Source: Kordiimonadales bacterium IMCC3096 (lineage in GTDB: Bacteria; Pseudomonadota; Alphaproteobacteria; Minwuiales; Minwuiaceae). From it: 64,000 bases of DNA. Numbering within the stretch: the stretch's first letter is position 1; every line of letters starts with the position of its first letter. The stretch covers positions 3,191,501-3,255,500 of the forward strand of contig CP018227.1 in assembly GCA_016865035.1 (NCBI GenBank), in the 5' to 3' direction. Below are positions 10,738-17,019 of the stretch, in pieces. The position numbers were made by a program, and so were the translations under genes. The notes beneath the pieces are model-generated. The model did not search any database, had not been told where the DNA came from, and saw only the letters and a list, made by a program, of their open reading frames with translations.

Positions 10738-11889
10738 ATGACCTTTGCCCTCTCCGAAGAGCAGCAGATGCTGAAGGACAGCGTGGACCGGTTCGTGGCC
10801 CAGGACTATGGCTTCGATGTGCGTCGTGCACTGGCGGAGTCCGACCTGGGATACAGCGCGGACAACTGGCGGACCTTCGCCGATCTGGGCTGGCTGTCGG
10901 TGCCGTTCGCGGAGGAGAACGGCGGCTTCGGCGGCAGCCTGCGCGATGTGGCAACGATGACGGAAGCACTCGGCAGGGGACTGGTGACGGAACCCTTCGT
11001 GCCCTGTCTGGTCCTTGGCGGAAGGCTGGTTGAGATGCTGGGATCGGCGGAACAGCGACAAGCCATCCTGTCCCCCGTCATCGCGGGCGAGACTCAGCTT
11101 GCCCTTGCGCACACGGAGCGCCGCGCCGCCGGCAATCCGGCCTGCGTCGGCTGCACGGTTCAGGCGGACGGGGACGGCTTCCGGATCAGCGGCGAGAAGC
11201 ATCTGGTGCTGAATGGGCCGAGCGCCGACCTGCTGCTGGTCTCCGCCCGGTCAGGCGGTGCGGAGCGGGACCGGCAGGGTGTCGATCTGTTCGTGGTCGA
11301 TGGGCATGCCGACGGCATTCACCGTCGCGATTATCCCACCATCGACGGGCTGCGCGCAGCCGACATCACGTTCGACACTGTGCGGGTCGAAGGCGCTGCC
11401 CGACTGGGGGAGGCCGGCTCCGCCATCGACGCCATCGAAGCCGTGATCGATGAGGCAATCATCGCCTGCTGCGCGGAGGCTGTCGGCGTCATGGAAGTGC
11501 TGGTCCGCGACACGGTCGAATATGCCCGCACGCGCAAGCAGTTCGGCACACCGATCGGCAAGTTCCAGGCCCTGCAGCACAGGATGGTGGACATGTTCGT
11601 TGCCCAGGAACAGTCCCGTGCCCTGCTGCTCCAGGTGATCGGGGAATTCCAGGCGGGGGGCACGGAAGCGCGCAAGGCAGCCTCCGCCATCAAGGTGCAT
11701 GTCAGCCGCTCAGCCAGGCTGATCGGGGAGCAGGCCATCCAGATCCATGGTGGCATGGGCACAACGGACGAGCTGCACATCGGCCACTACGTCAAGCGCC
11801 TGCTGGCGCTGGAGGTCCTGTTCGGCGACACCGACTATCACCTGGACCGCTACGCCGCGCTGATCGACTCAGCCGGGCAGGACACCTGA
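10738..11889 (+). CDS. Acyl-CoA dehydrogenase, subunit B of a two-gene pair
   Basis: A 383-residue acyl-CoA dehydrogenase with the C-terminal RKQFGTPIGKFQALQHRMVDM and QIHGGMGTTDELHIGHYVKRL blocks that bind FAD across the subunit interface. The middle domain is less canonical than in subunit A. ATG at 10738 begins 5 bases after the stop of subunit A; a GTG at 10729 overlapping that stop as GTGA is an alternative, so coupled translation is likely in either case. The two proteins probably form one heteromeric enzyme. The 3' end overlaps the end of the convergent oxyR gene by 21 bases. Confidence 0.88.
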   Translation: MTFALSEEQQMLKDSVDRFVAQDYGFDVRRALAESDLGYSADNWRTFADLGWLSVPFAEENGGFGGSLRDVATMTEALGRGLVTEPFVPCLVLGGRLVEMLGSAEQRQAILSPVIAGETQLALAHTERRAAGNPACVGCTVQADGDGFRISGEKHLVLNGPSADLLLVSARSGGAERDRQGVDLFVVDGHADGIHRRDYPTIDGLRAADITFDTVRVEGAARLGEAGSAIDAIEAVIDEAIIACCAEAVGVMEVLVRDTVEYARTRKQFGTPIGKFQALQHRMVDMFVAQEQSRALLLQVIGEFQAGGTEARKAASAIKVHVSRSARLIGEQAIQIHGGMGTTDELHIGHYVKRLLALEVLFGDTDYHLDRYAALIDSAGQDT

Positions 11890-12777
11890 GATACCCGGCC
11901 TGTTCCGGATGATCTCCGCGATTCCCATCAGTTGGTTGGCCAGCGGACTTGTACGCCGCCAGACCATGCCGACGGTCCGCGCAGGCTGTGGCTCGGGGAA
12001 GCGGGCGACGGAGACGGGGGCGGAGCGGGTCTCGACGGGCATCGCCATCTCCGGGATCAGCGTAACCCCGAAGCCCGCACTGACCATCTGGACCAGCGTC
12101 GACAGGGAACTGGCGTCCAGCGTTTCGCGCGGGGCGGAGGCGGCGAGCTTGCAGAACGACAGGGCCTGATCCCTGAAACAGTGCCCTTCCTCCAGCAACA
12201 GCAGGCGCATCTGCCGCAGCATCTCGCTGTCCGGAACGGGAGCGTGCGCATCAGCTTCCGGTCTGACGAGCAGGAACTTCTCCGTGAAGAGCGCAGCCTC
12301 CGTCAGTGTTGGCTCGGAGACGGGCAGGGCGACGATGGCCGTGTCGAGCTGCCCTTCTCGCAGTTCCTGGATCAGGGTTGGCGTCAGGGTCTCGCGGATC
12401 ATCAGATCCAGCCCCGGGTGGACATCGGCGAGAACGTCCACGATGGCCGGCAGCAGATAGGGGGCAATCGTCGGAATGATGCCGATCCGCAACCGCCCGA
12501 CCAGCCGGTCCCTGGACGCGCGCGCCATGTCGCCAAGCTCATCGACCGCGCGAAGGATGCCCGTGACCCGCTGCGCGGTCTCCTCCCCGAATCGGGTCAG
12601 CCGGATCTGCCGGGCGCCGCGTTCGACCAGCGCGGTGCCGAGGGTTTCCTCCATCTCCTTGATCTGCATCGACAGTGCCGGTTGGGAGATGGCGCAGGCC
12701 TCCGCCGCGCGGCCGAAATGCCCATGCCGGGCCAGGGCATCGAAGTAGCGCAATTGCTTCAGGGTCAGATTGATCAT
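11869..12777 (-). CDS. oxyR: OxyR-type hydrogen peroxide sensor (LysR family)
   Basis: A 302-residue LysR regulator with an N-terminal helix-turn-helix (LKQLRYFDALARHGHFGRAA) and an effector domain. The segment LEEGHCFRDQALSFC places Cys200 and Cys209 nine residues apart, matching the peroxide-sensing Cys199/Cys208 pair of Escherichia coli OxyR, so this is a redox sensor rather than a generic LysR protein. It is divergent from katG, its classic target. ATG at 12775-12777 is preferred to a TTG two codons upstream; no strong ribosome binding site is visible for either. Confidence 0.92.
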   Translation of the reverse strand: MINLTLKQLRYFDALARHGHFGRAAEACAISQPALSMQIKEMEETLGTALVERGARQIRLTRFGEETAQRVTGILRAVDELGDMARASRDRLVGRLRIGIIPTIAPYLLPAIVDVLADVHPGLDLMIRETLTPTLIQELREGQLDTAIVALPVSEPTLTEAALFTEKFLLVRPEADAHAPVPDSEMLRQMRLLLLEEGHCFRDQALSFCKLAASAPRETLDASSLSTLVQMVSAGFGVTLIPEMAMPVETRSAPVSVARFPEPQPARTVGMVWRRTSPLANQLMGIAEIIRNRPGISGVLPG

Positions 12778-15125
<2,348 letters not shown>

Positions 15126-15187: not shown

Positions 15188-15787
15188 TCAGGCGGCGTCG
15201 GACCTGCCGGTCAGCGCCAGCGCCGCCGTCTGCTGCATGACACGGACATAGCGTTCCTGCGGCCAGCCGCATTCGCGGCAAAGATGCTCCCAGTTCCGGA
15301 ACGCGAGCAGCATCCAGAGCCAGTCCGTTGCCTCTTCCTGCGTCAGATCCCCGGTCAGTTCGCCGTCCCGGTCCAGCGCGGCGATCGCGGCAGCGCACCC
15401 GTGCCGGATCGCCTGCATCCGGTCGTTCCAGGCCGTCATCGCGGCCTCGTCCGTGTCCTTCATTGCCTGCAGCGCCTTCGCCACCCCATGGACGACGGGA
15501 ATGTAGTTGCCGAGAGCATCGATCCAGGCGTCCAGCCGTTTCCGGCCCGTTGCTGCGGTGCGGCTCGGCACCAGCCGCCGCTCCACCTCGTTCTGCTCAT
15601 CGATATGACGGCTGGCTGCGACCAGCAGGTCGGCGCGGTTGGGGAAATGCAGGTACAGCGCCTGGCGGCTGATGCCGACAGCCCTGGAGATGTCCGACAT
15701 GCGCACGCCGCTGCCGCCACCGGCCTGAAGCAGGTCCAGCGTGGCCTGCAGGATGCGGTCACGGGTTGATGGGGTCTTTTCTGTCAT
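15188..15787 (-). CDS. TetR/AcrR family transcriptional regulator
   Basis: A 199-residue regulator with an N-terminal DNA-binding domain (about residues 8-55; VRMSDISRAVGISRQALYLHFPNRADLL) and a helical C-terminal domain containing several Trp residues. ATG at 15785-15787. It is divergent from an SDR-like gene and a DUF1772 gene across an 80-base gap filled by a nested palindrome, so it very likely represses both itself and that operon. Confidence 0.9.
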   Translation of the reverse strand: MTEKTPSTRDRILQATLDLLQAGGGSGVRMSDISRAVGISRQALYLHFPNRADLLVAASRHIDEQNEVERRLVPSRTAATGRKRLDAWIDALGNYIPVVHGVAKALQAMKDTDEAAMTAWNDRMQAIRHGCAAAIAALDRDGELTGDLTQEEATDWLWMLLAFRNWEHLCRECGWPQERYVRVMQQTAALALTGRSDAA

Positions 15788-15797
15788 GGCGGCAGTA

Positions 15798-15846
15798 TGA
15801 CGTCGCTTGACACGGTGTCAACTTGACACTATGTCAAGCGACGTCA
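15798..15846. promoter_or_regulatory. Nested double operator between tetR and the SDR/DUF1772 operon
   Basis: Two 15-base dyads lie side by side: TTGACACGGTGTCAA at 15807-15821 (perfect 7-base arms) and TTGACACTATGTCAA at 15823-15837 (6-base arms), with centres 16 bases apart. The pair sits inside a larger perfect inverted repeat with 15-base arms (15798-15812 and 15832-15846) centred at 15822. Tandem sites for TetR-family dimers in a divergent gap are known; the symmetric nesting is striking. Confidence 0.85.
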
Positions 15847-15867
15847 ACACGCAAACAGGAGAGCGAA

Positions 15868-16521: not shown

Positions 16522-17019
16522 ATGTCAAACGAACTCGTCTCCTGGTCCATGCTCGCCCTGGCCATGCCAAGTGCGGTGGTCGCCGGTGTCTTCATGACCT
16601 TTTCCGATCTGGTGATGCCGTCCCTCGGCCGTGGCGACGCGGCGACGGGCAGCGCAGCGATGCAGATGATCAACCGGAAGGTCTATCGATCGGTCTTCCT
16701 TGTCCTGCTGGTCGGGCTGGTGCCGGTGTCTGCTGCGGCAGCGATTGCTGCGGCGATGCTGGCTCAGCCGGTGGCCTTGCCCTGGCTGGTGGCGGCGGCC
16801 AGTCTCTACCTGTTCGGCGTCTTCGGCGTCACCGTGGTTGCCAACGTGCCCATGAACATCCGCCTGGACGGAATGTCATTGGCCGGAGGCGAGGCACAGG
16901 CCTACTGGCCGGACTATGTCGGTGGCTGGCTGCCCTGGAACCATCTGCGCACCCTTGCCGCGGCAGGCACCGCCGTCTGCTACATGGTCGCGGCGGTGCT
17001 GCTGGCTCAGGCAGGGTGA
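16522..17019 (+). CDS. DUF1772 (anthrone oxygenase-like) membrane protein
   Basis: A 165-residue protein with about four hydrophobic segments and the DUF1772 features GVFMTFSDLVMPSL near the N-terminus, FGVTVVANVPMN in the middle and a final WNHLRTLAA segment. Some fungal relatives are anthrone oxygenases; most bacterial members are uncharacterised. It lies 24 bases after the SDR-like gene, so the two form a TetR-controlled operon, perhaps for redox handling of a quinone-like or toxic compound. That function is inference. Confidence 0.85.
   Translation: MSNELVSWSMLALAMPSAVVAGVFMTFSDLVMPSLGRGDAATGSAAMQMINRKVYRSVFLVLLVGLVPVSAAAAIAAAMLAQPVALPWLVAAASLYLFGVFGVTVVANVPMNIRLDGMSLAGGEAQAYWPDYVGGWLPWNHLRTLAAAGTAVCYMVAAVLLAQAG

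Follow-up and report, generated by a model that had tools for sequence, protein, structure and literature searches.

The 49-base element that lies between a TetR-family gene (tetR) and a divergent SDR operon is very probably, taken as a whole, the autoregulatory operator of that divergently transcribed repressor gene. As judged from related loci, its two dyads, A and B, are the surviving members of an array of three (D1, D2 and D3), in which they correspond to D2 and D3. The element was studied in the window, that is, the whole 64-kb stretch of DNA that was analysed. Read directly, it runs from position 15798 as TGACGTCGC-TTGACACGGTGTCAA-C-TTGACACTATGTCAA-GCGACGTCA to position 15846, with a single C between the two dyads and a centre-to-centre distance of 16 bp. 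The outer arms (15798–15812 and 15832–15846) pair at 15 of 15 positions around a centre at 15822. The original prediction had described two 15-base dyads with the same arms, 16 bases apart (a distance measured from centre to centre), inside an outer inverted repeat with perfect 15-base arms centred between them, and this description is exact in the sequence. It had also stated that the element fills the gap between tetR and the SDR gene; the element does sit within this gap, but it covers only 49 of the 80 bp that separate the tetR start codon (15787) from the SDR ATG (15868). The features discussed below are collected in Table 1.

Table 1. Coordinates of the operator element, its proposed promoter elements and the flanking genes in the window.
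Feature	Coordinates	Strand	Basis or detail
tetR, TetR-family repressor gene, 199 aa, presumed element binder	15188..15787	-	PF00440 and dyads kept by orthologues
D1 place over the tetR start, degenerate in the window	15781..15795	.	5 of 12 mismatches
Proposed tetR -10, CATACT, 16-bp spacer	15794..15799	-	Predicted from consensus scan
Extra outer arm on the left, TGACGTCGC, symmetry specific to the clade	15798..15806	.	Pair counts over loci
Dyad A, corresponding to D2, TTGACACGGTGTCAA	15807..15821	.	7-bp perfect arms, centre 15814
Proposed SDR operon -35, TTGACA, dyad A left arm	15807..15812	+	Predicted; absent from consensus scan
Proposed tetR -35, TTGACA, dyad A right arm	15816..15821	-	Predicted from consensus scan
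Dyad B, corresponding to D3, TTGACACTATGTCAA	15823..15837	.	6-bp perfect arms, centre 15830
Proposed SDR operon -10, TATGTC in dyad B, 17-bp spacer	15830..15835	+	Predicted
Extra right outer arm GCGACGTCA	15838..15846	.	Pair counts over loci
AGGAG, Shine-Dalgarno-like, 6 bp 5' of the SDR ATG	15857..15861	+	Read in sequence
Divergent target gene, SDR-like NAD(P)H-binding protein of 209 aa	15868..16497	+	PF13460, 174.4 bits
Anthrone-oxygenase-like protein (PF08592; DUF1772 in the original prediction), second target-operon gene	16522..17019	+	50.5 bits, cut-off 27.3

The element stands out from its surroundings. Taken in its entirety, it consists of 24-nt arms in which 22 of 24 positions pair, and it is the best palindrome of this arm length in a scan of the 64-kb window; the next independent palindromes reach 17 of 24, and the maxima of 20 first-order Markov simulations of 64 kb range from 17 to 20. 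The dyad pattern TTGACANNNTGTCAA (TTGACA-N3-TGTCAA) has exactly two matches in the 4,291,441-base genome, both inside the element, where ~0.04 would be expected by chance (assuming independent bases and 65% GC) and a backward-read control pattern matches once. A search of the same genome for a wider regulon, with one mismatch allowed, returned only two extra sites versus three control matches.

The question of whose operator this is was addressed by genome comparison. Close orthologues of the window TetR (E ≤ 1e-54) were found in 26 of 385 genomes sampled from the class, in a search that scored at most eight candidates per genome and may have missed some orthologues; three more class genomes contain only distant TetR matches (1e-26 to 1e-31). 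In line with the original reading of the dyads as TetR operators, the tandem dyad pattern, sought in the same 385 genomes with up to two mismatches, stands beside tetR in 24 of the 26 orthologue genomes, with a 16-bp spacing in seven and a 15-bp spacing in 17 different ones, and is absent from all of the other 359 (0/359). The backward-read control of the tandem gave no match at either spacing throughout the 385 genomes. The association between tandem and orthologue has a Fisher's exact p of ~4e-36, a value that ignores relatedness; because the orthologues are related, the counts of genomes and loci are not counts of independent events. The two orthologue genomes without a tandem match are G087, which has three mismatches in the pair, and G201, from which D3 is gone. 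At the G201 locus (L040), D1, D2 and tetR are still in place, and the divergent SDR frame is interrupted close to its start; this operator may have decayed along with its target gene. In a phylum sample of 398 genomes, four gave a match at 1e-25, all from the same class and one of them a fragment.

Exact dyads are concentrated in the same place. Of the 49 exact dyads found in 29 genomes that have an orthologue, 42 are at the tetR locus and seven elsewhere, versus five control matches. Because the tandem tracks the orthologue and the exact dyads are mostly found at the tetR locus, the element is best described as a local, TetR-linked operator. A wider regulon was rejected, as the seven off-locus sites looked like chance, except for one that is common to G128 and G231. 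This lone TTGACAGAATGTCAA, near position 1000 of loci L071 and L072 in two related genomes, lies between a dihydroorotase-like frame and a VVGAGISG frame (FAD/NAD-binding), both genes being named by eye, and is a possible second TetR target in the genus of G128 and G231.

The array was then tabulated over 31 loci: to those of the 26 class genomes, G001 contributed two more, G003 and G589 one each, and a Tateyamaria omphalii plasmid one. Loci L066, a fragment lacking the N-terminus, and L067, the second G589 copy, were dropped, and L001, L002, L012–L018, L019, L020 and L048–L064 repeat loci already tabulated. The two tetR/SDR copies of G589 (L065 and L067) are ~102 kb apart on one contig and have identical operator stretches. 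With up to two mismatches of 12, D1 is present at 27 loci, D2 at 31 of 31 and D3 at 30 of 31; in G208, all three dyads are perfect. The D1–D2 spacing is 26 bp at 26 of the 27 loci that have D1 and 27 bp at one; the D2–D3 spacing is 15 bp at 20 loci and 16 bp at 10, and these two values are scattered over a poorly resolved protein tree, where the fewest changes that account for them number six.

D1 overlies the tetR start codon; on the coding strand, its left arm is ATG-TCA-A, or GTG-TCA-A in L033. Every one of the 27 genes with D1 has TCA at codon 2, whereas further along (codon 4 onward) TCA makes up 36 of 266 serine codons; therefore, the gene start doubles as an operator. The D1-bearing proteins begin with M-S-S or M-S-R, and the four D1-less proteins with MTEK, MATE or MKNE. 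The four loci without D1, which are the window, G002 and the two of G001, form a single clade (100/100), and by comparison of the loci this clade lost D1 as a single event. Both remaining dyads, D2 and D3, are perfect at all four. Within the same genus, G003 and G006 have a more remote orthologue, at 50 to 52% identity, accompanied by the complete three-dyad array. Still more distant TetRs (33 to 40% identity; L010, L021, L022, L044, L045 and L046) have a similar recognition stretch and are found with paired TTGACA-N2-TGTCAA dyads, which are 25 to 30 bp apart and share the half-site, with one base less between the arms. Because these six TetRs carry paired N2 dyads, an array of two sites may have come first, with D3 gained later.

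The dyads also contain candidate promoter elements. Read leftward, the right arm of D2 is TTGACA at 29 of 31 loci and TTGACG at two, and in the window it would serve as the tetR -35. The -10 proposed with it, CATACT, would place the start of the tetR transcript at or near the ATG; in the array, the leftward -10 would be located at the edge of D1, and its hexamer varies among relatives. No Shine-Dalgarno-like word was found 5' of tetR at 27 of the 31 loci, the window included, and the tetR mRNA is predicted to be probably leaderless. At the other four loci, a GGAG lies in the 16 bases that precede the tetR start, and their transcripts are perhaps not leaderless.

In the rightward direction, the D1-bearing loci and the window clade differ. 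The left edge of D2 reads TANTTG at 24 of the 27 D1-bearing loci, placed 17 bp after the TTGACA of D1 at 23 of those 24 and 18 bp after it in L032, and the two hexamers would together form the rightward promoter of these loci. The window clade is without the D1 -35 and without TANTTG. At the place of the proposed SDR -10, it has TATGTC at all four loci, a hexamer seen there at none of the 27 others; TATGTC agrees with the E. coli -10 consensus at three of six positions, a weak match, and the promoter scan did not report it. The absence of the D1 -35 and TANTTG from this clade, combined with the presence of TATGTC, suggests that the SDR promoter was relocated into the remaining dyad pair.

From these features we propose the following mechanism. 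One TetR dimer would bind to each dyad of an array that would hold the promoters of both directions. Dyad A would provide the tetR -35 and, in the window clade, the SDR operon -35, and the SDR -10 would fall inside dyad B. As the dyads would thereby supply elements of both promoters, bound dimers would shut off both tetR and the SDR operon. At 10.5 bp per turn, center spacings of 15, 16 and 26 bp correspond to helical phases of 154, 189 and 171 degrees; neighbouring dimers would sit on roughly opposite faces of the DNA, and those at D1 and D3 on roughly one face. Binding of two dimers is plausible in view of the conserved 15/16-bp spacing, and cooperativity between them is a guess. A ligand, which we would guess to be a quinone, an electrophile or a redox signal, would release the repressor.

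The predicted binding unit is the inward TTGACA-N3-TGTCAA dyad, an assignment supported by comparison, since N3 is constant in D1, D2 and D3 while the spacer at the D2–D3 junction is 0 at 20 loci and 1 at 10. The window can also be read in another register, as an everted TGTCAA-N1-TTGACA at 15822 that would be bound by one dimer or tetramer in the middle of the element. The model for such binding is AotM of Mycobacterium bovis BCG, which controls an oxidoreductase gene and is linked to oxidative stress; this TetR-type protein is reported to bind TGTCAATGTTGACA within a 46-bp footprint (PMC11351531). AotM and the window share the TTGACA/TGTCAA hexamer, and the window has the everted form with a one-base spacer. 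The AotM motif is TGTCAA-N2-TTGACA, however, and the two systems are likened here by motif. The variable junction, together with the occurrence of D1 alone, without an everted partner at the junction distance, makes the everted register an improbable alternative to the inward dyad.

By the pair counts, the outer palindrome is mostly what two like dyads produce on their own, supplemented by nine pairs specific to the clade, and we take it as symmetry flanking the tandem, not as a device in its own right. Specifically, six of the 15 outer-arm pairs arise of necessity whenever two dyads share their arms, leaving nine extra pairs (15798–15806 with 15838–15846). These extra pairs were counted at 30 loci, L040 being excluded because it is without D3, and amount to nine of nine in the window, seven of nine in each of its three clade-mates and 0 to 5 (mean 3.0) at the 26 other loci. 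Left and right arms taken from different loci match at a mean of 3.1 of nine positions across the full set; for arms combined in this way inside the clade, the range is 6 to 9 of nine, with a mean of 7.5 that equals that of the real pairs. Cross-locus pairs thus match as well as real ones, and no covariation of the outer arms is found within the clade. Each outer arm has seven of nine positions invariant in the clade, versus 17 of 21 in the downstream spacer. The conservation of the outer arms in related genomes, raised in the original prediction along with that of the dyads, does not extend beyond the window's clade.

Two further explanations assign the outer arms a role of their own. In the first, their GACGTC would be the site of a second regulator working with TetR in this clade: GACGT is found on both sides at three of the four clade loci and on the right side at all four, and its origin lies in the same clade from which D1 disappeared. 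Nevertheless, the pattern comes from four closely related loci only, in which the surrounding spacer is similarly conserved, and we regard a second regulator as very unlikely. In the second, which takes up the cruciform or hairpin of the original prediction, the outer palindrome would act alone, as a cruciform or as a hairpin in either DNA or RNA, a reading that the perfect 15-bp arms, a fold of the element strand at -23 kcal/mol (z -9.2) and the seven to nine of nine outer pairs at all four clade loci appear to favour, but that is extremely unlikely given that any tandem of two like palindromes folds strongly, that the arms are not more conserved than the downstream spacer, and that the extra pairs average only 3.0 of nine outside the clade and do not covary inside it.

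The presumed binder of the dyads is a TetR-family protein by Pfam. The window TetR matches TetR_N (PF00440) at 43.4 bits, above the gathering cut-off of 24. None of the 14 characterised NCBIfam TetR groups listed, which include ScbR-type, KstR, AcrR, MtrR, BetI, RutR and SlmA, reaches its cut-off (best 36.4 bits versus 150). The recognition stretch RQA(L/V)YLH is kept at 31 of 31 loci; the residue that follows is Y in L042, not F. A structure model, computed from three sequences, is all-helical with a mean pLDDT of 63.5 and is confident in the HTH only; with this weak model, Foldseek retrieved, among the matches listed, TetR-family structures at TM 0.44 to 0.68. The dimer geometry of the model was set aside in view of the three sequences, the low mean pLDDT and the confidence confined to the HTH. 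By sequence, the best solved relative is Mce3R (1.5e-10), followed by DarR (9.4e-08).

Two TetR-family dimers are known to occupy a single operator in QacR bound to IR1, whose dyad centres are much closer than 15–16 bp. DarR likewise accommodates two dimers, on a single operator whose palindromes overlap (PMC10636190; PDB 8sua, 8svd). In contrast to the window array, the DarR sites, as described in that paper, overlap in a 20-bp operator (ATACT-N4-AGTAT) on which the dimers touch, and the protein binds c-di-AMP and cAMP. A parallel in gene control is AcuR of Rhodobacter sphaeroides, a leaderless, autoregulated TetR whose operator overlaps its own promoter (PMC3017554). The AcuR paper, which names tetR of Tn1721 as a leaderless case, describes an alphaproteobacterial TetR-family autorepressor with a transcript that starts exactly at the ATG, no Shine-Dalgarno, and similar regulatory sequences in relatives, features that the window system shares or is predicted to share. 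Unlike the single AcuR operator TAATAGAC-n6-GTCTATTA, the operator here is made of two or three TTGACA-N3-TGTCAA dyads; the targets are divergent, whereas acuR-acuI-dddL unites regulator and targets in one operon; D1 enters the coding sequence in most relatives; and the leaderless start is a prediction. No earlier description of such an operator array was found in the literature searched, subscription papers aside.

The genes facing tetR vary in kind. Across the 31 loci, the first divergent frame encodes a clear NAD_binding_10 SDR at 17, a more NmrA-like protein at two, a flavodoxin-fold reductase at nine and an anthrone-oxygenase-like protein at two, and is not intact at one. The common theme of these divergent target genes is redox chemistry, and for this reason a quinone or an electrophile is possible as the ligand. 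On the other side of the tetR/SDR unit, and directly adjoining it, the window contains (11869–15125) a LysR protein most like OxyR (239.9 bits, short of the 329 cut-off) and a catalase-peroxidase (1326.9 bits). A catalase-peroxidase frame is next to tetR in loci L019 and L020 as well. The catalase-peroxidase and OxyR-like neighbours fit a redox role of the tetR/SDR unit.

The window element is thus an ordinary kind of device in an apparently undescribed, strongly constrained TetR subfamily. A more far-reaching reading, which we advance tentatively and would not yet favour, is that this subfamily, so far seen in Alphaproteobacteria only, relies on an array phased for three dimers, which would serve at the same time as two divergent promoters that overlap and as the beginning of the repressor's own coding region. 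D1 would then fix the first codons, ATG or GTG followed by TCA-AG, giving M-S-S/R; the 26-bp D1–D2 distance would represent the -35 + 17 + -10 geometry in both directions; and the D2–D3 distance would toggle between 15 and 16 bp. If this is true, the window clade would document, as a natural example, how a promoter moved within an operator after the loss of D1 and its -35.

Autoregulated TetR operators are common, and the interesting part is the dyad that overlaps the coding sequence and its loss. The 27 loci with a spacing-constrained array, drawn from many alphaproteobacterial families, form an evolutionary series together with the clade that is without D1. They offer a testable case of a DNA-binding constraint shaping the N-terminus of a protein, and of promoters shifting within operators. 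For an uncharacterised TetR group, the operator signature also predicts the local target, namely the neighbouring SDR, flavodoxin-fold reductase or anthrone-oxygenase-like genes.
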